Source of the DNA: a virus
Reading direction: 5' to 3' (one strand)
DNA: 64,000 bases
IMG/VR virus record: IMGVR_UViG_3300021356_000018
Coordinates: 1 to 64,000 of that record
Part shown: positions 14 through 58,135 of the stretch, piece by piece
Numbering within the stretch: the stretch's first letter is position 1
How the letters are laid out: every line of letters begins with the position of its first letter
Program-made: the position numbers and the translations under genes
Notes under the pieces: generated by a model
Database searches by the model: none
What the model saw: only the letters and a program-made list of their open reading frames with translations
What the model was told of the DNA's origin: nothing

Positions 14-460
14 ATGAGAATTGGTTTTACATGTAGTGCATTTGACTTATTACATGCTGGTCATGTACAAATGTTAAGAGATGCTAAAGCTCAATGTGAT
101 TATTTAATGGTAGGATTACAAATGGACCCTGCATTAGATAGACCCAAAGAAAAGAACCCACCTATACAAACAATCGTAGAAAGATACACTCAACTCAAAG
201 CAATTGGATATGTCGATGAGATTATTCCTTACAACTCTGAGCGAGACCTTATGGATATTTTGGAATTGTATCATATCGATGTTCGTATTTTAGGTGACGA
301 ATATAGAGATAAAGAATTTACAGGTAAAGATATCTGCCGTAAACGAGACATCGAGCTCTTCTTTAATAAACGAGACCATAGGTTTAGTACATCATCTTTG
401 CGAAAATCTTGTGCTTGGGTAAACAAAGACGGTGATTGGAAGATGACCGAAGAAGGATAA
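14..460 (+). CDS. Cytidylyltransferase-like nucleotidyltransferase
   Basis: A member of the HxGH nucleotidyltransferase superfamily resembling glycerol-3-phosphate cytidylyltransferase (TagD type). The HAGH nucleotide-binding signature lies about 17 residues from the start and the second signature FSTSSLR lies near the C-terminus; the length of about 148 aa is normal for the family. I chose the ATG at 14 because GGAG at 4-7 is an ideal ribosome binding site for it; the in-frame ATG at 2 would leave no visible upstream signal. The substrate is uncertain. It precedes the packaging genes and could make an activated alcohol or sugar for surface modification (inference). Confidence 0.75.
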   Translation: MRIGFTCSAFDLLHAGHVQMLRDAKAQCDYLMVGLQMDPALDRPKEKNPPIQTIVERYTQLKAIGYVDEIIPYNSERDLMDILELYHIDVRILGDEYRDKEFTGKDICRKRDIELFFNKRDHRFSTSSLRKSCAWVNKDGDWKMTEEG

Positions 461-463
461 ATA
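456..463 (+). promoter_or_regulatory. Possible late promoter box (GATAAATA)
   Basis: GATAAATA is one base off the T4 late box TATAAATA. It ends 4 nt before the gp16 start, so it could serve gp17 or later genes rather than gp16 itself; a chance match is possible. Confidence 0.3.
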
Positions 464-467
464 GTAT

Positions 468-974
468 ATGAGCGATGATAAGATAGCACAGGCACTCAAT
501 ATGAGATCGTTAAACGATGTACATGACGAAGAAAAGCAAGAAAAGCTGGACGAATTAAATCCAGACAAATTGCCTGATTTGCCTATCAACGCTTTTTCTA
601 CTAATGATGATGTTGAAAACTTACCTGCCGAACAACCAATCCAACATCCTGTTGTACTCGATGATGGTGCTGAAGAAAATTTAAAAGACATTGAGTTAGC
701 TAAAGCTAATATTGAAAACATTATTAGTTTAGGAGATGACTCAGTAAAAGAAATGGTCGAAATTGCTAAACAATCAGAATCGCCCAGAGCATTTGAAGTT
801 GTATCTACATTAATGAAAACATTACTTGATGCAAATAAAGATTATGTTGAAATGAGTACTAAAAAGAGATATGCTAAAGAAGAAGCAAATCCTGCAAAAC
901 AAGAAGTAACAAATAATAATCTTATTGTATCTACTGCAGATTTACTTAAAATGATAAAGGGCGAAGGTGACTAA
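468..974 (+). CDS. gp16: Terminase small subunit (gp16-like)
   Basis: DNA-packaging regulator, called from its position directly before the large terminase and from its make-up: 168 aa, acidic, predicted largely helical. In T4 gp16 forms rings that help the large subunit start packaging. The 3' end overlaps the gp17 start by 8 nt, as expected for translational coupling. The sequence itself is weakly conserved, so synteny carries much of the call. Confidence 0.85.
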   Translation: MSDDKIAQALNMRSLNDVHDEEKQEKLDELNPDKLPDLPINAFSTNDDVENLPAEQPIQHPVVLDDGAEENLKDIELAKANIENIISLGDDSVKEMVEIAKQSESPRAFEVVSTLMKTLLDANKDYVEMSTKKRYAKEEANPAKQEVTNNNLIVSTADLLKMIKGEGD

Positions 975-2658: not shown

Positions 2659-4581
2659 ATGGCTTTTTCCGTAAGTCCTTCGGTAATAGTTCGTGAAGTG
2701 GACGCATCAGCAGCGGTTCCTGCCATCGCAACGCCACCTGCCGCTATTGCAGGTGTTTTTAGATGGGGTCCGGTAGGCGAAACAGTTCTTGTTTCTTCAG
2801 AGAATGAGTTAGTAGCAAGATTTGGTACACCAACCAATGATAACTACGAAACGTTCTTTGTAGCAGCAGATTACCTTTCATATGCGAATGCTCTTTACGT
2901 AGCTAGAGTAGACAATGGTGCTGTCAAAGCATCGGCATCAGATACATCAAGTGCAAATACACAATTACATACATTCGGCGCCTTCGACGCAAAATATCCA
3001 GGAGCTCTAGGTAACTCCTTAGAAGTTGGATATGTTAAGTCTGATAAATTCGAATCTGATGTAATTGCTGTTGGAGACGTATCTGGTAGTAAATTAACAG
3101 GTAACACACAAATTTCACAAACATTAGATTTTAACGCAACACAAGTTGTATTTGAAGTTACACCTCCAAATGCTCTTGCAGCTGATGAATGGGAAGTTGA
3201 TGATACTATTGTAATTGGTAACGATTCTGTCGGATATCAAGATATTCCAGTAACAAGTTTTACTGAAGCAACTCTTGCATCTGATGGTACACCTACAGCA
3301 AATACTTCACTAATTGTATCACATCAATATACAATCGGTTTAGGTAATTCATACAGATTAGCAGAAAGTGATTTAAACAAATTATCACTTAACCGCAAAT
3401 GGAAATACCACAGCTTATTTGGTAGAGCTCCACAATCTGGTAACTATCATGTTATCGTAATTGATGAAGATGGAGATATTTCAGGTGAAGCAGGTGCAGC
3501 ATTAGAGTTATACGAAGATGTTTCAACAACTTCAACTGCAAAACTTTCTGATGGTTCAACAAACTACTATAAAGATGTAATTTTAAATAAATCAAGTTGG
3601 GTAGAAGTTGCTAATACAACACATTTTGAAGCATCAGCACAATCAAGCACATACGAAAGTTTAGCACTAGGTACTGATGGTACTTCTGAATCTGCTACAA
3701 CTCTCGGGCCTTTAGCAGGTGGATACGATTTATTTAAGAACTCAAATGAAATTGATGTTTCTTTCGTATTACAAGGTAAGGGTGATAACTCTGGTAATCT
3801 TGCAAATTACATTATTAGTAATATTGCAGATTATAGAAAAGACGCTGTTGCTTTCATCTCACCTTCTAAGGAAGCTGTTGTTGACGAAAACAAAACAAAT
3901 ACAAAACTATCTAATGTAATTGCATACAGAAACGCTTTACAAAATAGTTCATACTTCTTTATGGATTCTGGATATAAGTACAGATATGACAAGTACAACG
4001 ATGTATACAGATATGTACCATTAAATGGTGATACTGCAGGACTTGCTTCAAGAGTTGAACCTTTTGAATCTCCAGCAGGCTTCCGTAAGGGCGTAATTAA
4101 GAATGTTGTAAAACTTGCGTTTAACCCTAATAAAGCTCAACGTGACCAATTATACAGCAAAGATATTAACCCAGTAATGAGTCAAGTAGGACAAGGTATT
4201 GTACTATTTGGTGATAAGACTGGATTGGGTCTACCAAGCGCATTTGACAGACTGAATGTTCGTAGATTGTTTATCTCTGTTGAAAAGGCGATCGCAAATG
4301 CAGCTCAATCATTCTTATTTGAACTGAATGACGAGTTTTCTCAAACACAGTTTAAGAATATCGTCGAACCTTTCTTAAGAGAAATTCAAGGGCGAAGAGG
4401 AATTATTGATTTCAGAGTTATTTCTGATGCATCAGTAAATACTCCAGCAGTTGTTGACCAAGGTAAATTTAAAGCTAATATCTTTATTAAACCTGCAAGG
4501 TCAATCAACGTTATTGAGTTAACCTTTGTGGCGACACGAAGCGGAATTGAGTTTGAAGAAATTGTTGGCTCAATCGGTTAA
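2659..4581 (+). CDS. gp18: Tail sheath protein (gp18)
   Basis: Contractile tail sheath monomer, 640 aa. The N-terminus (MAFSVSPSVIVREVD) is typical of the family, as is the conserved C-terminal domain with FRVISDAS and the INVIELTFVATRSGIEF segment that binds the tube and the neighbouring subunits. It is followed by tube and portal genes as in T4-like phages. The middle region is the variable surface-exposed part. Confidence 0.97.
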   Translation: MAFSVSPSVIVREVDASAAVPAIATPPAAIAGVFRWGPVGETVLVSSENELVARFGTPTNDNYETFFVAADYLSYANALYVARVDNGAVKASASDTSSANTQLHTFGAFDAKYPGALGNSLEVGYVKSDKFESDVIAVGDVSGSKLTGNTQISQTLDFNATQVVFEVTPPNALAADEWEVDDTIVIGNDSVGYQDIPVTSFTEATLASDGTPTANTSLIVSHQYTIGLGNSYRLAESDLNKLSLNRKWKYHSLFGRAPQSGNYHVIVIDEDGDISGEAGAALELYEDVSTTSTAKLSDGSTNYYKDVILNKSSWVEVANTTHFEASAQSSTYESLALGTDGTSESATTLGPLAGGYDLFKNSNEIDVSFVLQGKGDNSGNLANYIISNIADYRKDAVAFISPSKEAVVDENKTNTKLSNVIAYRNALQNSSYFFMDSGYKYRYDKYNDVYRYVPLNGDTAGLASRVEPFESPAGFRKGVIKNVVKLAFNPNKAQRDQLYSKDINPVMSQVGQGIVLFGDKTGLGLPSAFDRLNVRRLFISVEKAIANAAQSFLFELNDEFSQTQFKNIVEPFLREIQGRRGIIDFRVISDASVNTPAVVDQGKFKANIFIKPARSINVIELTFVATRSGIEFEEIVGSIG

Positions 4582-12773: not shown

Positions 12774-12848
12774 TGGTACCCCGTAGGAGAGTCGAACTCC
12801 TGTTGCCGAGATGAAAACCCGGTGTCCTAACCACTAGACGAACGGGGC
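12774..12848 (-). tRNA. tRNA-Glu (anticodon UUC)
   Basis: Complete cloverleaf on the minus strand. The acceptor GCCCCGT pairs with ACGGGGT, the anticodon stem is CCGGG/CTCGG with loop TTTTCAT, and the T loop contains TTCGA. The CCA end is encoded. It is the only tRNA I found in the window. It sits directly upstream of the hemC group on the same strand; glutamyl-tRNA is also the precursor of 5-aminolevulinate in hosts with the C5 pathway. Confidence 0.95.
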
Positions 12849-14863: not shown

Positions 14864-14897
14864 AATATAATTCCTTTCCTCATTAATTTATGGGTCT

Positions 14898-14926
14898 ATT
14901 ATAACCCGTTTGATTTGATTTGTCAA
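14898..14926 (-). promoter_or_regulatory. Early sigma70 promoter
   Basis: Minus-strand TTGACA (14926-14921), 17-bp spacer, TATAAT (14903-14898), preceded by AAGG. Drives the gene run 14863 to about 13057. Confidence 0.9.
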
Positions 14927-14949
14927 CCTTTTTTTGCATTTATTTTAAA

Positions 14950-26762: not shown

Positions 26763-26803
26763 AATATATCCTTTTCCAAAGTTTAATTTAATTTATAAGT
26801 ACT

Positions 26804-26832
26804 ATTATATCAAACAAAAATGAATTTGTCAA
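26804..26832 (-). promoter_or_regulatory. Early sigma70 promoter
   Basis: Minus strand TTGACA (26832-26827), 17 bp, TATAAT (26809-26804) before the gene at 26762. Confidence 0.9.
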
Positions 26833-26872
26833 CCCTTTTGCTAAAAATAATAGCACTTATTTCCTCAAGGAA

Positions 26873-29734: not shown

Positions 29735-29741
29735 ACTTGTT

Positions 29742-29770
29742 ATTGTAACACGTTCTTTTGTGTTTGTCAA
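29742..29770 (-). promoter_or_regulatory. Early promoter giving a leaderless mRNA
   Basis: TTGACA (29770-29765), 17 bp, TACAAT (29747-29742). Seven nt separate the -10 box from the ATG, so transcription should start at or next to the start codon; no ribosome site is present. Confidence 0.85.
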
Positions 29771-29773
29771 CCC

Positions 29774-30121
29774 TTAATGTATTGTTTGATTTCCATTCTC
29801 AAAAAGTATTTCCAGCATTTCTGCTGATTCTTCGTAGTGCCCAGACTTTATAATGTCTACAACACTAGGAAATTCTGAATCTGTCATTACTGGTAATGCA
29901 GTAAGTTTTTTATATTTGTGAGGTGCGAACATATCTTTAGCAAAACTGTCTGCTGCAGTTTGTGTTTTAAAAGAACATGCTGTTGTTAAATTAAAAGGAT
30001 TATTAGATGCAAAACAAGCAAAGACTCGTCCGTCATCTTCATATCCTAACTCTCGACCATCGTATGTTCCTAAGAACACACCCATGTCTTTATCAGCTAA
30101 AATGTATCGTCTCTTTTTCAT
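29774..30121 (-). CDS. Early/middle protein, unknown
   Basis: A 115-aa soluble protein. Overlaps the 3' end of the nuclease gene by 29 nt and runs to the promoter of the HD gene. Begins MKKRRYILADKDMGVF. No domain recognised. Confidence 0.65.
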   Translation of the reverse strand: MKKRRYILADKDMGVFLGTYDGRELGYEDDGRVFACFASNNPFNLTTACSFKTQTAADSFAKDMFAPHKYKKLTALPVMTDSEFPSVVDIIKSGHYEESAEMLEILFENGNQTIH

Positions 30122-32796: not shown

Positions 32797-32826
32797 AATT
32801 TATCCTTTTCCTATTCATTATTAGAT

Positions 32827-32855
32827 ATTGTAACATGTTTTTATGCATTTGTCAA
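32827..32855 (-). promoter_or_regulatory. Early sigma70 promoter
   Basis: TTGACA (32855-32850), 17 bp, TACAAT (32832-32827), minus strand, for the HAD gene at 32796. Confidence 0.85.
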
Positions 32856-32858
32856 CCC

Positions 32859-33656
32859 CTATTTGAATAGTCCTTCAATGTCCCAGTTTGTTACATACTG
32901 GTCAATTTCAGGCTCACCAGTCCAAGTTATTTCCCTGTTATAGGGATTATATTTGTCACCTGAAAAGTAATCCTCGTAACAAACCAGTTCACCTGGTACC
33001 ATACTATATAGCTTGGCCATATTGTCATAATTCTCAGTTAATTGAGTAACTAGAGAGCGCATTGACATGGTCGTTTTTGCATGGAATACTGGGTCGTCTG
33101 GGTCCATTGTTGCTTTATAAGGCTCTTTTGTTTTACCATAAGTGCCACGATGTAATTGTAGCATTCTCTTATAATAATCATTTTCTGGCGTTAAATGAGT
33201 TAATGCTACATTTGTAATAAACCCAGTATGGCCGAATGAGCCATCACGCCGAACTGCTAACCAACTTTTAATTTGTGCTCTAAAGTCACGACGATACAAA
33301 TAGTAAACTTTATCAGCATGTTCTAAAATAGTTTTTATTTGAAATAAGTCGGCTTCTGTCTTATAATTAAATCGCTTATGGAAATGGCTAGGCATAATTT
33401 TATAACATGCTTTTGCACCAAATCTTAACTCATCAAATATATTCCAGTTACTTAAAGCAAGATTAGCAATGTTTGCATCTTTGTATTTAAATTTTTTATT
33501 GAAATCATCGGGCGTCAATAGTTTACCAATACTGTGAGGTCTCTCGTGAGAAAATAATTCACCTTTATATGGCAAATCATATTCTTCTGCTTTGTTTAAT
33601 GTAAAGCTTGTGCTACCTGTACGAAAGTTTGTTACGACAACAACATTATTGGTCAT
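32859..33656 (-). CDS. Sulfotransferase-like protein
   Basis: A 265-aa protein. The N-terminal TNFRTGSTSF is the 5'-phosphosulfate loop of PAPS-dependent sulfotransferases, and YLYRRDFRAQIKSWL fits the 3'-phosphate motif (R-D...Q..S). The rest is alpha/beta. It would move sulfate from PAPS to a sugar or lipid, perhaps on the cell surface. The acceptor is unknown. Confidence 0.8.
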   Translation of the reverse strand: MTNNVVVVTNFRTGSTSFTLNKAEEYDLPYKGELFSHERPHSIGKLLTPDDFNKKFKYKDANIANLALSNWNIFDELRFGAKACYKIMPSHFHKRFNYKTEADLFQIKTILEHADKVYYLYRRDFRAQIKSWLAVRRDGSFGHTGFITNVALTHLTPENDYYKRMLQLHRGTYGKTKEPYKATMDPDDPVFHAKTTMSMRSLVTQLTENYDNMAKLYSMVPGELVCYEDYFSGDKYNPYNREITWTGEPEIDQYVTNWDIEGLFK

Positions 33657-40095: not shown

Positions 40096-41216
40096 TAATC
40101 TTCTCTTTGGCCAAATCCATAATCAATTACAACTGGGAATCTTGGTATTCCATCAGGCGTCTCGTTAAAGTATCTTAGTGTTGCCCAATTTGGTGTATCA
40201 CCATTGTCCCATAATTTTTTAAGTACATCTTGTGTACCTCTTACTCCTGCTCCAAAGTTTGTACCATCTGGTTTTTGTAATACAAAATGTTTTACATAAC
40301 CAGCCCAGTTACCTTTACCTTCTAACATTGAAACAACTTTAAATTCGTCAGTAATAAACTCTTTACGCTTTAGTAAGTATTTACTTCTTTTGTTTTCGTA
40401 AGGCATATCGTATCGCACCATTTGCCCTTCGTAACCATCTTCCATCCATTGACCATAAAGATTGTCTAAACTTTCTTGTGATTGTACTGATATAGTTTCT
40501 ACAACTTTAATTGCATTCATGTCAGAAAGTGTCATACCCAGCCTAAAAAACCTGCTTGAGAAGACTAAATCGCTCTCAGAAGTGTCATACATATCATAAA
40601 CATGGTATTGCACAAGCCTTTCTGATTCTAAAATGTCATACTCTGTAGATTTTTGTTTACGAACAAGCGATGTGATTTTATTAAAGTCATCTTTAAGTTC
40701 GTGGTTATATAACTCACCATCGAATACATACTCTGGATGCTCATCAAATATTCCTTTAATCTCATTCCAAATATGTGGGCAACTTGTAATTGGCTTATTT
40801 GCTCTCGTCCAAAGTCCACTCTTGTTTGCAATGCATCGTATACCATCGAGCTTTGGTTGAGCGATAATTGGAAAATCATCATTCTCTTTATAACCACCAG
40901 CTAACATTGGTTTAAATGCTGTATAAGAGTCGATGTCTTTGATATCTTTGAAGTACTCTTTTTCAATTCTACGATCGTAGATGCTCATTGCTTCAGTTAT
41001 TGCTTGAGTATAAGCATTGGTTGCATTTGCACGACCAACATTTTTTGCTTTAGTTTCTTTCCAGCCTGATGTTACAAGCTTTCCATCTTTAATTCCAGCA
41101 ATACTTCTAATTGCAGCAACATCATCTGAATCCCAACCATATTGAATAGTCAGTTCTCTGATTTTACCTTTTGTATCTCTTTTATAGAGAGTTGGTAATG
41201 ATGATATATTTTGCAT
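40095..41216 (-). CDS. ATP-dependent DNA ligase (gp30 role)
   Basis: A 373-aa ligase. Motif I AQPKLDGIRC holds the AMP-binding Lys122; motif III FDGELY, motif IV EGQMVR and motif V YLLKRKE follow, then an OB-fold C-terminus. Shorter than T4 gp30 (487 aa), the loss being in the N-terminal region. It seals nicks after RNase H and polymerase action. Confidence 0.93.
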   Translation of the reverse strand: MQNISSLPTLYKRDTKGKIRELTIQYGWDSDDVAAIRSIAGIKDGKLVTSGWKETKAKNVGRANATNAYTQAITEAMSIYDRRIEKEYFKDIKDIDSYTAFKPMLAGGYKENDDFPIIAQPKLDGIRCIANKSGLWTRANKPITSCPHIWNEIKGIFDEHPEYVFDGELYNHELKDDFNKITSLVRKQKSTEYDILESERLVQYHVYDMYDTSESDLVFSSRFFRLGMTLSDMNAIKVVETISVQSQESLDNLYGQWMEDGYEGQMVRYDMPYENKRSKYLLKRKEFITDEFKVVSMLEGKGNWAGYVKHFVLQKPDGTNFGAGVRGTQDVLKKLWDNGDTPNWATLRYFNETPDGIPRFPVVIDYGFGQRED

Positions 41217-41647
41217 TAGTTTCTCCTCATTTTAGCAATCTCTTCTGCTTGTTTAGTACCTTTCATAACTGGAACTGCGTTTGATTTGTGCATAGTAGCA
41301 ATACCAACAATCAGGTCACCAGTATACTTAAGTGTTTCTTTCTTAGTACCACTGCCACCGCCTGTAACTTCTAGCGAAGGATAGTTTGGTGTTTCTCTAC
41401 GATAAGCAGATTGTGGTTGATAAGTTTTGAAATTTTTATAGTGACGAGGGTCTGGCATTTTTGTACGACCATAAGAGTAATCGATGTACTCTTGTAGAGT
41501 ATCATATCGTAAGTCGTGCATACCTTTACGTTTCATGTCACGATTGTGCTCTCGCCATTGCAGCTCGAGTTCTTGCAATTTTGCTTTCGTGATTTTGACC
41601 TTTCGCTTTTTAGTGCTTATGGTCGATAATCCTCTAGCTAATCCCAT
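41216..41647 (-). CDS. Conserved phage protein, unknown
   Basis: A 143-aa basic protein with a KAKLQELELQWREHNRDM helix and a GGGSGTKKE linker. It starts directly behind an early promoter and couples to the ligase. I recall related proteins in cyanophages; function unknown. Confidence 0.7.
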   Translation of the reverse strand: MGLARGLSTISTKKRKVKITKAKLQELELQWREHNRDMKRKGMHDLRYDTLQEYIDYSYGRTKMPDPRHYKNFKTYQPQSAYRRETPNYPSLEVTGGGSGTKKETLKYTGDLIVGIATMHKSNAVPVMKGTKQAEEIAKMRRN

Positions 41648-41674: not shown

Positions 41675-41703
41675 ATTATAACACGTTAGAATGTATTTGT
41701 CAA
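41675..41703 (-). promoter_or_regulatory. Early sigma70 promoter
   Basis: TTGACA (41703-41698), 17 bp, TATAAT (41680-41675), minus strand, for the gene at 41647. A perfect inverted repeat ACCCTT/AAGGGT (41703-41716) sits against the -35. Confidence 0.88.
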
Positions 41704-41716
41704 CCCTTAAAAGGGT

Positions 41717-41871
41717 GGTCTTGCGGTCGGCTGTTTTGGTGTTCCGTTCCTACTCAGTATGTCGGTAGTTCTGGTGTTCCATATTGAGCGCGGTAGGCGT
41801 CGTGGGTCCTAAATGGTAGAGCTATTAACTCCGTGATTCCATCTCGCCGTCATGCTTTAATCCCGCAGACC
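41717..41871 (+). ncRNA. Putative structured RNA, unassigned
   Basis: About 155 nt, clearly GC-richer than the surroundings and without a credible ORF. The ends pair over 9 bp with one bulged U (41717-41726 with 41863-41871). Inside, 41753-41761 pairs with 41780-41788 over 9 bp including a G-U that is allowed only on the plus strand; GGCG (41796-41799) can pair with CGCC (41845-41848) and ATGG (41813-41816) with CCAT (41839-41842). An 18-nt element is repeated (41728-41745 and 41763-41780, 15 of 18 identical). No plus-strand promoter is seen; on the minus strand it would be the 3' region of the bS21 mRNA. Confidence 0.5.
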
Positions 41872-41882
41872 ATAAACTTGTA

Positions 41883-42164
41883 TTACCTTCTTCCTCGGTA
41901 GTTACTCAATTGTTCAGATGCTACTTTTTTAAGCCATCTCTTTCTGCCTTCAGCTTTTTTACGTTTACGTTTTGCTGTCGGCTTTTCATAAAATTCTCTA
42001 GCTCTTAATTCTTTTATAATTCCAGCTTTTTCAATCTGTTTTCTAAATTTCCTTAAAGCTATATCGAAAGGCATATCTTGTGGTGGCCTTCTATCTTTTG
42101 GATGTCTTGGCCTTGCTCTTAAATCAACGGTTCTCCCATTGATTTGCTTATTATATTTTCTCAT
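41883..42164 (-). CDS. rpsU: Ribosomal protein bS21
   Basis: A 93-aa bS21 homologue. [31 protein letters not shown] matches cellular bS21 closely, followed by a Lys/Arg tail. bS21 sits next to the anti-Shine-Dalgarno end of 16S rRNA and influences start-site choice. I use ATG at 42164, 7 nt after the -10 box, so the mRNA should be leaderless; a longer frame would run into the promoter. The phage copy may replace host bS21 on ribosomes. Confidence 0.93.
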
Positions 42165-42171
42165 AAGTGTT

Positions 42172-42200
42172 ATTATAATTGGTTTTGTTTGATTTGTCAA
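42172..42200 (-). promoter_or_regulatory. Early promoter giving a leaderless bS21 mRNA
   Basis: TTGACA (42200-42195), 17 bp, TATAAT (42177-42172), then 7 nt to the ATG at 42164 with no ribosome site. Same geometry as the promoter at 29742. Confidence 0.88.
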
Positions 42201-53949: not shown

Positions 53950-53980
53950 AGTTTTCACCTTTTTCATAATTTAAAGTGTT

Positions 53981-54009
53981 ATTATAACACGTTGTGTAAG
54001 TTTTGTCAA
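53981..54009 (-). promoter_or_regulatory. Early sigma70 promoter
   Basis: TTGACA (54009-54004), 17 bp, TATAAT (53986-53981), minus strand, for Nmad1, DsbA-like and gp42 genes. Confidence 0.88.
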
Positions 54010-54014
54010 CCTTT

Positions 54015-55480: not shown

Positions 55481-55506
55481 AATGTCATTCTCCTATTTTG
55501 TGCTAT

Positions 55507-55535
55507 ATTATAACACGTTTGTTTGTATTTGTCAA
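55507..55535 (-). promoter_or_regulatory. Early sigma70 promoter
   Basis: TTGACA (55535-55530), 17 bp, TATAAT (55512-55507), minus strand, for the gene at 55480 and onwards to cytochrome c. It touches the polymerase stop. Confidence 0.88.
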
Positions 55536-58078
55536 CCAAAAAATAAATCCAATGTATCTTGTTTTTCAGAAGTCCAGCCGAGAGCTTCAATGATATGCTC
55601 GATAGGACTAAGGAATACTTTACCGAATTGTGTTTCGTAATCTATATATCGCTCGAGTCCAAGTTCTGGCGGTAGAACAGTTGGGAATGAGATAACATTT
55701 TCACGTATCGGATTTGGTACTTTGAGATACACAAACTTTACCTTATCGCCTGACTGAATGGACTCGTATCGTTTACTGAGACCTTTGTCTTTAAGATAAT
55801 GGTTAAATAATATGCAACCACGAACATGTATTGGACAACCTTTCTTGTATCCACCCTTGGTCATATACTTCTCGATATTGTCAGTACCTGAGTTACGACC
55901 AACAGCTTCTGCAGGAAGTTTAAAGAACTCTTGTTTGAAGTCTGCAATAAATTTTTGAGTCTGTTCTTCACCTTCGTTTAGAATTACGCTGAAGATTTCA
56001 CGCATTTTGTCACGACATACTTCTGGCGTTGATGAACGAACTGATTCAAGTCCTGTCACACTGATTTTTGGTTTTTCGTAATGTACACCTTCTGAGTTAA
56101 GCGTATTAAGTATATATCGCTTTTTAGCAATGAAGATTGCACGGTCATTAATTTTCTCACGTTTCATTACCATCGCATTACGATAGGCACCCATATCAGA
56201 TGCAAGCTTCTCGTAACCTTGTTCGATAATCTGTTCGATTTTAGTTTGGCATACTTTATCAAGGAACTCTTCGCCAGTCTTGCGATCGATGTCAGTCGTA
56301 CCATAGACCTTTTCAACGAGGTCTGCAAAGTTAACGTAAATTGAGTCAGTGTCGATATAGATGATATAGTCTTTGTCTTTTGTTTTCAGTACTTTGTTGA
56401 GATAATCGTTTACAGACTTTTGTGCATATCGAATCGAGAGCTGACCTGATGTGGTAATAGCTTCAGCCATATCATTAATATAGTATAAGAAGTATATGTT
56501 TGCTGTAGCACCATAGAGTGAGTTCATCGAAATTTTTATCGACATTTGAGAATTGTGCAATTGGTTAGCTTCTGTCTTAAGCTTTTTCTTTTCTGTAGGG
56601 TCAGTTTCAACTTCAAGTTGTTGTTCAACCGCAAGCATTTGCTTTTTGATTTGAGCACGATTATTATAGTACTCATCAATAATCTCGGGAATAATACCGA
56701 GTTTATCATTACTGAAACATGCACCATTTGCAGCAACAGAATATGATTTATTGTTATTTTTAAATTCGTCTTTAAGTACCATATCTTGAGATACATACTC
56801 ACGTTCATCTTGCAAATAAGTTTCAGGTGACATATTGTATTGAAGCATCAAGTGAGGATACAGTGAGTTCAAGTCAAATGATACTACCCAAGGGTACATT
56901 GCAGGTTTAGGGTCTTTAACATAACCACCTACAAGACCAGAACCTCGTTGACCTGGTGATTCTTTGATTGGTGGAACAATCTTGTCACTCATCAGTTTAC
57001 GATAGATAATAGATTCCCATATACCTACAGTGCCGAATGCATCGTTATAGTTAACTCCACCACCATAAGCAACAGTCATCACAAGAGCAAGTAGAGATGT
57101 TTCCTCTTCCAACCTTTCAATGAGCTGTGTGTCTTTTAAGTTATAGTCGAGATAGAGTTGCGGGTTCTGTTCGTATAAAGCATTTAGATTACCATATTCA
57201 GAATAATCCAATTTCTTTTCACCGAGTACAACATTCGCAATATGGTCAAGTCTGTAGGATTCTTGTGGTCCGTACTTGTAACCAAACTTTTTAAACGCAT
57301 CCATATAGTCAATAACAGCAACACCTGAGATTGTGTAAGATGATTGTACCTTACCAAACACTTCTCGCGAATATTTACGAATATTATTCCAAGGGCTGAG
57401 TCGTTTGGATAATTCCTCACCACATAGATTTGTAATACGAGTCACAATATACTGAATGTCAAAGTATTGTACGTTCCAACCAGTTACAACGTCCGGATAA
57501 TCAGATACCCATATCTCAACGAATCGTCTGAGTAATTGTACCTCTGAGTCAAATTTGATGAATACAATATTCTCGGGGTCGATACCAGTAATAGTTTTTG
57601 TCTTATCAAAATCTTTGCGTCCAAGCAAATAGTACAGGTTTGATTTAGATGATTTATATGCAATAGATGTGATTTCTTTGTCAGCATATTCTGTGTTTGC
57701 ATACCCATCGCTGATATCGACCTCGATATCGAAGGAGACGATGTTGACTTGGTTAATGTCATAACGTACATCGTCGGGATAATTCTCTTGAATAAATTGA
57801 GCAGTATAGTTTGTGTTACCAAAGATTTTCATGCCATGAACACCTTTGTACTCTTCAGTAAATTCTTTAGCTTCACGCATTGAGCCAAACTGCTGAGGAC
57901 TCAATGGTAAGTTACCTTTAAGGGAAGTATATCCCTCGTCACCAGATTTTGGTGTGTGTAAGTAAAGAGTTGGTTTGTAAGGAACGCGATATGAGAAACG
58001 TTTACCGTTTTCGTAACCACGATGCAAGATGTTATTGCCGTAACGCTCGACTGAAGTGTAAAAAGAAGTCATACTCAT
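55532..58078 (-). CDS. gp43: DNA polymerase (gp43, family B)
   Basis: An 848-aa replicative polymerase with proofreading (T4: 898). Exo I SFDIEV (Asp117, Glu119), exo II GWNVQYFDI, motif A FDLNSLYP (Asp402), motif B KISMNSLYGA and motif C IDTDS (Asp576, Asp578) are all intact. ATG at 58078 or at the third codon. Confidence 0.98.
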   Translation of the reverse strand: MSMTSFYTSVERYGNNILHRGYENGKRFSYRVPYKPTLYLHTPKSGDEGYTSLKGNLPLSPQQFGSMREAKEFTEEYKGVHGMKIFGNTNYTAQFIQENYPDDVRYDINQVNIVSFDIEVDISDGYANTEYADKEITSIAYKSSKSNLYYLLGRKDFDKTKTITGIDPENIVFIKFDSEVQLLRRFVEIWVSDYPDVVTGWNVQYFDIQYIVTRITNLCGEELSKRLSPWNNIRKYSREVFGKVQSSYTISGVAVIDYMDAFKKFGYKYGPQESYRLDHIANVVLGEKKLDYSEYGNLNALYEQNPQLYLDYNLKDTQLIERLEEETSLLALVMTVAYGGGVNYNDAFGTVGIWESIIYRKLMSDKIVPPIKESPGQRGSGLVGGYVKDPKPAMYPWVVSFDLNSLYPHLMLQYNMSPETYLQDEREYVSQDMVLKDEFKNNNKSYSVAANGACFSNDKLGIIPEIIDEYYNNRAQIKKQMLAVEQQLEVETDPTEKKKLKTEANQLHNSQMSIKISMNSLYGATANIYFLYYINDMAEAITTSGQLSIRYAQKSVNDYLNKVLKTKDKDYIIYIDTDSIYVNFADLVEKVYGTTDIDRKTGEEFLDKVCQTKIEQIIEQGYEKLASDMGAYRNAMVMKREKINDRAIFIAKKRYILNTLNSEGVHYEKPKISVTGLESVRSSTPEVCRDKMREIFSVILNEGEEQTQKFIADFKQEFFKLPAEAVGRNSGTDNIEKYMTKGGYKKGCPIHVRGCILFNHYLKDKGLSKRYESIQSGDKVKFVYLKVPNPIRENVISFPTVLPPELGLERYIDYETQFGKVFLSPIEHIIEALGWTSEKQDTLDLFFG

Positions 58079-58101
58079 ATTATTCCATATTGTAGGGTAC
58101 T

Positions 58102-58130
58102 ATTATAACACGTTGTGTGGAATTTGTCAA
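58102..58130 (-). promoter_or_regulatory. Early sigma70 promoter
   Basis: TTGACA (58130-58125), 17 bp, TATAAT (58107-58102), minus strand, before the polymerase gene. Confidence 0.88.
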
Positions 58131-58135
58131 CCGTT

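Follow-up and report, generated by a model that had tools for sequence, protein, structure and literature searches.

What does a G+C-rich, structured and apparently noncoding island do between two genes of a T4-related phage? The island occupies positions 41717-41871 of the window (the whole stretch of 64,000 nucleotides analysed here), which belongs to a virus record of 64,222 bases whose genes, such as those for clamp loader and ligase, are of T4 type; among isolates, Methylophilales phage Melnitz comes nearest in the clamp loader protein (55% identity). An earlier note, written from this one sequence, had described the island as a structured noncoding RNA and had pointed to a hairpin that favoured the plus strand. 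Comparison with relatives upholds the first part, a structured noncoding RNA outside Rfam, and overturns the strand together with the hairpin on which it was based.

Fold, covariation and strand of the island

The island contains 52.3% G+C against a mean of 36.1% (sd 4.2) in 155-nt windows (0.13% of which are as G+C-rich), and its two ends form a helix, P1 (GGTCTGCGG with CCGCAAGACC, minus strand), that covaries across the family; both features had been recognised in the earlier note. The repeated element that it had also reported spans 20 nt with 17 matches (41726-41745 versus 41761-41780), a level reached by 0 of 500 dinucleotide shuffles, and in the relatives (by eye, alignment A2) a CCGAC-like core alone is common to most members. 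Since single-sequence folding is unremarkable for either strand (z -0.38 for plus, z -1.69 for minus), relatives were needed to decide, and the evidence for the fold is covariation and not energy.

Across the family the RNA adopts a three-way junction, with P1 as the closing helix and two arms, A (P2 and P3) and B (P4 and P5) (Table 1). The loop strands AUGACGGCGAG and GGACCCACGAC of arm A are near-invariant, and inspection by eye of the P4/P5 loop gave no consistent Watson-Crick scheme for extra pairs. Both sides have changed in 20 of 40 pairs of A2 (33 sequences), a plain MAFFT alignment whose structure was hand-drawn from an earlier alignment of the same sequences, and in 23 of 28 pairs of A3 (44 distinct sequences), which was fitted to the model and hence leans towards it; one P2 pair, for instance, turns from C-G to G-C in the window and in L031, and to U-A in two more rows. 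In A3, 95.7% of the cells are paired, as compared to 24-46% with slid partners and 77% in shuffles; the covariation score is reached by 0 of 500 shuffles, and the top pairs in a scan of all column pairs belong to the same helices. Covariation in homologues, whose absence the earlier note had named as the refutation of its proposal, is present and supports a structured RNA. Judged by this covariation, which exceeds that of shuffles and slid controls, the segment 41717-41871 is genuinely a structured noncoding RNA, and a conserved one.

Read as minus-strand RNA, the pairs of the family hold 59 G-U versus 13 A-C cells (26 versus 13 without the constant P3 pair 30-83), 11 of the 13 A-C cells falling in two P5 pairs, where they stem from a lineage that is, by eye, out of register in the alignment. 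On account of this excess, of the promoters directly before the RNA and of the direction of the neighbouring genes in the main context, we read the RNA from the minus strand. The hairpin with the supposedly plus-only G-U pair, which we reconstruct as GGCGTCGTGG/CCATCTCGCC, is present in 2 of the 44 distinct members, and a plus-strand RNA was rejected. The same one-strand excess of G-U over A-C in the helices, which a DNA hairpin does not need, argues against the island being a DNA-level feature (a recombination or replication site), despite its being a recombination hotspot; as for a small coding gene, a 14-codon frame could begin at ATGACGGCGAG in members with the P3 tip called X, but ATGACGGCGAG is missing in 13 of 44 members and the longest inner frame reaches 27 codons. 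We regard a DNA-level or coding explanation as very improbable. A micro-ORF, MTARWNHGVNSSTI, was likewise rejected, its start codon not being conserved.

Table 1. Features of the RNA locus and of promoter-like blocks in the window
Feature	Position	Strand	Evidence or remark
Structured RNA, 155 nt in the window phage	41717..41871	-	R1 match 155 bits, E 1.9e-44 (a seed row's own match, the window being one of the 33 seed rows of R1); alignment A2; covariation
P1, 5' strand (closing helix)	41863..41871	-	covarying; 99.5% of cells paired, 44 distinct sequences
P1, 3' strand, with a single bulged A in the window	41717..41726	-	alignment A2 and covariation
Arm A (P2, P3) with its conserved loop strands	41797..41855	-	alignment A2
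Arm B: P4 and P5	41730..41789	-	all 4 P4 and all 4 P5 pairs double-changed
Exchangeable P3 tip X, 26 nt, replacing a GNRA tetraloop	41815..41840	-	
U-containing tail after P1, ACCCUUUU	41709..41716	-	four consecutive T in the window
bS21 gene, immediately upstream, with 11 nt between its stop codon and P1	41883..42164	-	PF01165, E 6.6e-17
Perfect sigma-70 type promoter of the bS21-RNA transcript	42172..42200	-	12/12 matches, spacer 17
143-aa gene downstream (PHROG 27048); next comes an ATP-dependent DNA ligase gene	41216..41647	-	
Perfect promoter of the 143-aa gene	41675..41703	-	12/12 matches
Promoter-like blocks (seven)	55506-55537, 29741-29777, 14896-14931, 53964-54014, 58099-58135, 26801-26837, 32826-32861		TTGACA/TATAAT, conserved surroundings

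Relatives, gene contexts and transcription

The family comprises the window and 79 IMG/VR contigs (44 distinct sequences), as delimited by R1, a covariance model built from 33 distinct sequences. Relatives were retrieved through bS21 (303, of which 80 were kept) and through the 143-aa neighbour (57), and members in new contexts were added by further pattern scans. R1 recovers all 80 sources chosen for it (the window, and a single locus in each of the 79 contigs), which had been picked as earlier positives, so that the figure is no estimate of sensitivity, and 0 of 53 other sources (relatives by bS21 or the 143-aa gene, plus three pattern matches); by R1, the pattern matches L176, L195 and L202 are not members. 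Three of the matches are cut by contig ends. No homologue was detected in the isolates Melnitz, HTVC008M, phiW-14, DLP_6, T4 and AerS_266, and the best R1 match in S-PM2 (15.3 bits, E 0.033) is not significant. In BLAST searches of isolates, the matches of the window DNA were confined to the promoter side or to the AerS_266 match discussed below, and L066 gave no match. R1 found the RNA in 0 of 4 bacterial genomes and, with strict filters, in 0 of 369, both searches being run without a positive control; 21 pattern matches in genome contigs, from diverse bacteria and one archaeon, were rejected as bacterial homologues, the best R1 score among the six scored being 15.7 bits.

In 65 of the 80 loci the RNA is flanked by bS21 and the 143-aa gene, in 6 the contig breaks off on the bS21 side and 9 have other surroundings, the bS21-context count being inflated since many contigs are near-copies and many were fetched via bS21 or the 143-aa gene. 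In the other contexts the RNA is followed by a small membrane-protein-like gene starting MKWLAT (L248, L250, L253, L255 and L196) or by a 447-aa gene (L178, L179, L194 and L206), and in L096 a tRNA gene (3480-3552) directly follows the RNA, ahead of the 143-aa gene. The C-terminal part of the 143-aa protein also matches proteins of Delftia phage PhiW-14 and Phage C48C1, and its middle part matches proteins of Melnitz. A constant body in at least three gene contexts favours a discrete, trans-acting RNA; the presence of a same-strand gene after the RNA in each of the three contexts counts against a purely trans reading.

The frequent adjacency to bS21 (65 of 80 loci) would also suit an RNA that is a partner of the phage bS21, forming a joint RNP with it or buffering it, by analogy to bS21 on OLE RNA. 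According to PMC12054373, OLE is a structured noncoding RNA linked to, and bound by, ribosomal protein bS21 in Halalkalibacterium. OLE RNA is, however, about 600 nt long, bacterial, and equipped with a mimic of the anti-Shine-Dalgarno sequence CCUCCU, a site that the family RNA does not have (CCTCC in 0 of 44 members). In addition, many bS21 loci occur without the RNA, and PF01165 has no match in 7 records with other contexts, two of them of 100-108 kb and all possibly incomplete. Such a partnership therefore appears distinctly unlikely to us.

In most members the RNA is preceded by its own promoter. A mismatch-free TTGACA-17-TATAAT ends 6-10 nt before P1 in 31 of 47 distinct loci with flanks (representing 77 R1 matches, the 3 truncated ones being left out), and a promoter within 3 mismatches is present in 36 of the 47, the five extra loci carrying a consensus-like promoter slightly further upstream, versus 6.4% of control positions, which were random and not intergenic ones. 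After P1, 39 of the 47 loci have four or more consecutive T (8.3% in the control); in the window, P1 and its tail resemble a terminator, and a consensus terminator scan raised no flag. No promoter precedes the RNA in 11 of the 47 loci, the window included. The earlier note had placed the island between a leaderless bS21 gene and an early promoter: the position is confirmed (the perfect minus-strand promoter of the next gene runs from 41703 to 41675), and bS21, with a promoter ending at 42172 and its ATG at 42164, is leaderless. The transcriptional surroundings need correction, as the bS21 stop so close to P1 implies that in the window the bS21 transcript would carry the RNA at its 3' end, the relatives mostly having a promoter for the RNA itself. 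Seven more blocks elsewhere in the window (Table 1) resemble the stretch just downstream of the RNA and are, to judge from their sequence, a set of putative early-type promoters.

This arrangement bears on the possibility that the RNA is a cis-acting leader (a riboswitch or attenuator) of the next gene, with P1 and the U-run as a switchable terminator. The promoter, the RNA, the U-run and the start of the 143-aa gene are consecutive on one strand in most members, the invariant unpaired loop nucleotides resemble a ligand pocket, and a same-strand gene follows in every one of the three contexts. On the other hand, a separate promoter lies between the RNA and the downstream gene in the window and in the L034, L044 and L014 types, so that the 143-aa gene of the window phage has no need of the RNA as a leader; in L096 the downstream spot is taken by a tRNA gene; the three downstream genes are unrelated, so that no single gene class has the RNA as a regular part of its 5' UTR; and near-identical phages with the same downstream gene swap hairpins. 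We consider a leader unlikely and keep to the trans-acting RNA as the preferred reading.

Exchangeable hairpins

The outer parts of the RNA are modular. The P3 tip occurs as a GNRA tetraloop, as X (in the window), as a longer branched form Y and as a fourth form C, and in some members a hairpin (P5a), absent in the window, is inserted in P5. Tip X is 99.5% identical on average (minimum 96.2%) among 17 sequences, as compared to an average of 68.2% for the rest of the RNA, and its 25-nt core is exact in 24 IMG/VR contigs. A tree of the bS21 and 143-aa proteins (42 rows) needs 7 changes of tip type, those of X numbering at least 5 by well supported branches.

The exchange is visible among pairs of loci (14 in one comparison) that were chosen from the tree and the alignments and not as a random sample. 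Between the window and L035 the flanks are 96% and 95% identical (900 nt per side), the RNA core 73%, and the tip matches at 0 of 25 positions. L013 and L188 (flanks 98% and 99% identical) differ in both hairpins, and L066 and L064 (flanks about 100% identical) differ by one P5a insertion. P5a also differs between L014 and L052, whose compared downstream flank is 99% identical, and between L012 and L010 (flanks 96% identical upstream and 87% downstream). In others of the 14, such as L010 and L015, the hairpins are the same, and in pairs such as L253 and L250 the flanks are just 63-65% identical. As a separate observation on the window and L035, the region encoding the C-terminal tail of bS21 (about 41883-41950 of the window) diverges along with the RNA, both sides being about 95% identical, and the exchanged block seems, from this divergence, to include the end of bS21.

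Entire arms also occur apart. L041 types consist of a single arm, B, which P1 closes into a unit of 90 nt (L041 2235-2324, L042 3319-3408), whereas in L178 types arm A (69 nt) is closed by a P1 of its own and arm B, which comes directly after it, by a second P1 (L178 8922-9120, L206 about 375-571, minus strand); going by these arrangements, arms A and B look like separable modules. The pattern of exchange fits diversifying selection on the hairpins, and neutral recombination of the tips could also produce it.

The near-invariance of tip X raises the further possibility of an antisense guide, in which the tip, or else a loop, would base-pair with a transcript of the host or of a phage, and the complement of tip X does match 27 of 28 nt in a gene of Aeromonas phage AerS_266. 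The protein matches of that gene, however, are to internal head protein families, and R1 finds nothing in the phage record; we take the similarity as chance and rejected AerS_266-like genes as targets. The best pairing with the E. coli rRNA operon or with the phage's own genome is at the level of shuffles, and these targets were rejected as well; when up to 3 mismatches were allowed, neither tip X nor its complement was found in two sets of genomes (0 of 369 and 0 of 385). We would thus give little credence to a guide function.

Known RNAs and a proposed role in the host cell

Against Rfam 15 (4227 families), the window at gathering score yielded no match at the RNA (the sole match being a tRNA elsewhere), and its segment 41600-42000 nothing on the RNA at E<=5. 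For 11 relatives at E<=1 the sole match was the tRNA beside the L096 RNA, together with a second family on the strand opposite that tRNA, and for 3 more relatives at gathering score there were tRNAs elsewhere and no match at the RNA. As the earlier note had stated, tRNA, tmRNA and 6S RNA give no match at the island (ARAGORN and Rfam for the first two). The sole tRNA found in the window is a tRNA-Glu (TTC) at 12774-12848 (minus strand). A search of the literature in an open library returned nothing on the RNA of 41717-41871.

The nearest parallels by circumstance are the species 1 and 2 RNAs of T4 (rnaC and rnaD), small stable RNAs of about 119-139 nt that lie beside tRNA genes in a T4 relative, as one member of the present family (L096) also does; we know of no function for them. 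They share no sequence or model similarity with the family (the best R1 score, 7.9 bits, falls outside both in L268, 4001 bases, filters off), the whole T4 record has no R1 match, and rnaC ends (by eye) in a tRNA-like T arm, unlike the family. ROOL, GOLLD and other ornate RNAs resemble the present case as structured RNAs of phages and mobile elements without known roles, and are far larger. Cyanophage functional RNA I (CfrI), of about 225 nt, is described in PMC12197685 as a noncoding RNA of a T4-like marine phage, a status that the family RNA shares, and differs in being an antisense RNA tied to psbA (PMC12197685); homology to CfrI finds no backing in the non-significant whole-record match of R1 in S-PM2. 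The RNA is thus, on these comparisons, a new family among the structured noncoding RNAs of phages, and its new feature is the exchangeable arms.

Taken together, we think that in a group of aquatic, T4-related phages the minus strand of 41717-41871 probably gives rise to a small RNA that is discrete and stable and acts in trans. In the mechanism we propose, host RNA polymerase would make the RNA early, with transcription starting at P1 in most members (early and strong expression being suggested by the perfect consensus promoter), and the transcript would fold into a compact body with long loop strands that are unpaired yet invariant. These loops may bind a host protein or RNP (of the translation, RNA-decay or defence machinery), and the outer hairpins would confer target specificity, being exchanged, we propose, because hosts differ in the target or the target fights back. 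That the core shape is kept and the outer hairpins are swapped between near-identical viruses suggests a possible tool against the bacterial host, and we infer that the RNA may serve in early host takeover or counter-defence through protein binding. A bolder version, which we put forward tentatively and would not bet on, is that it represents a new class of phage RNA effectors, in which a constant three-way-junction scaffold offers two docking sites (the P3 tip and P5) and phages would retarget a single early RNA by plugging in alternative hairpins through recombination, in the way that they vary their tail fibres or anti-defence proteins.

Phage RNAs of conserved fold are few and mostly unexplained, and the present family adds one more, a structured RNA located next to viral bS21, whose own role in phages is likewise open. 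The RNA is small and stands behind a promoter of maximal consensus in most members; its natural hairpin variants constitute ready-made test material, and the combination of a constant body with tips exchanged among near-identical phages points to a role that may face the host.
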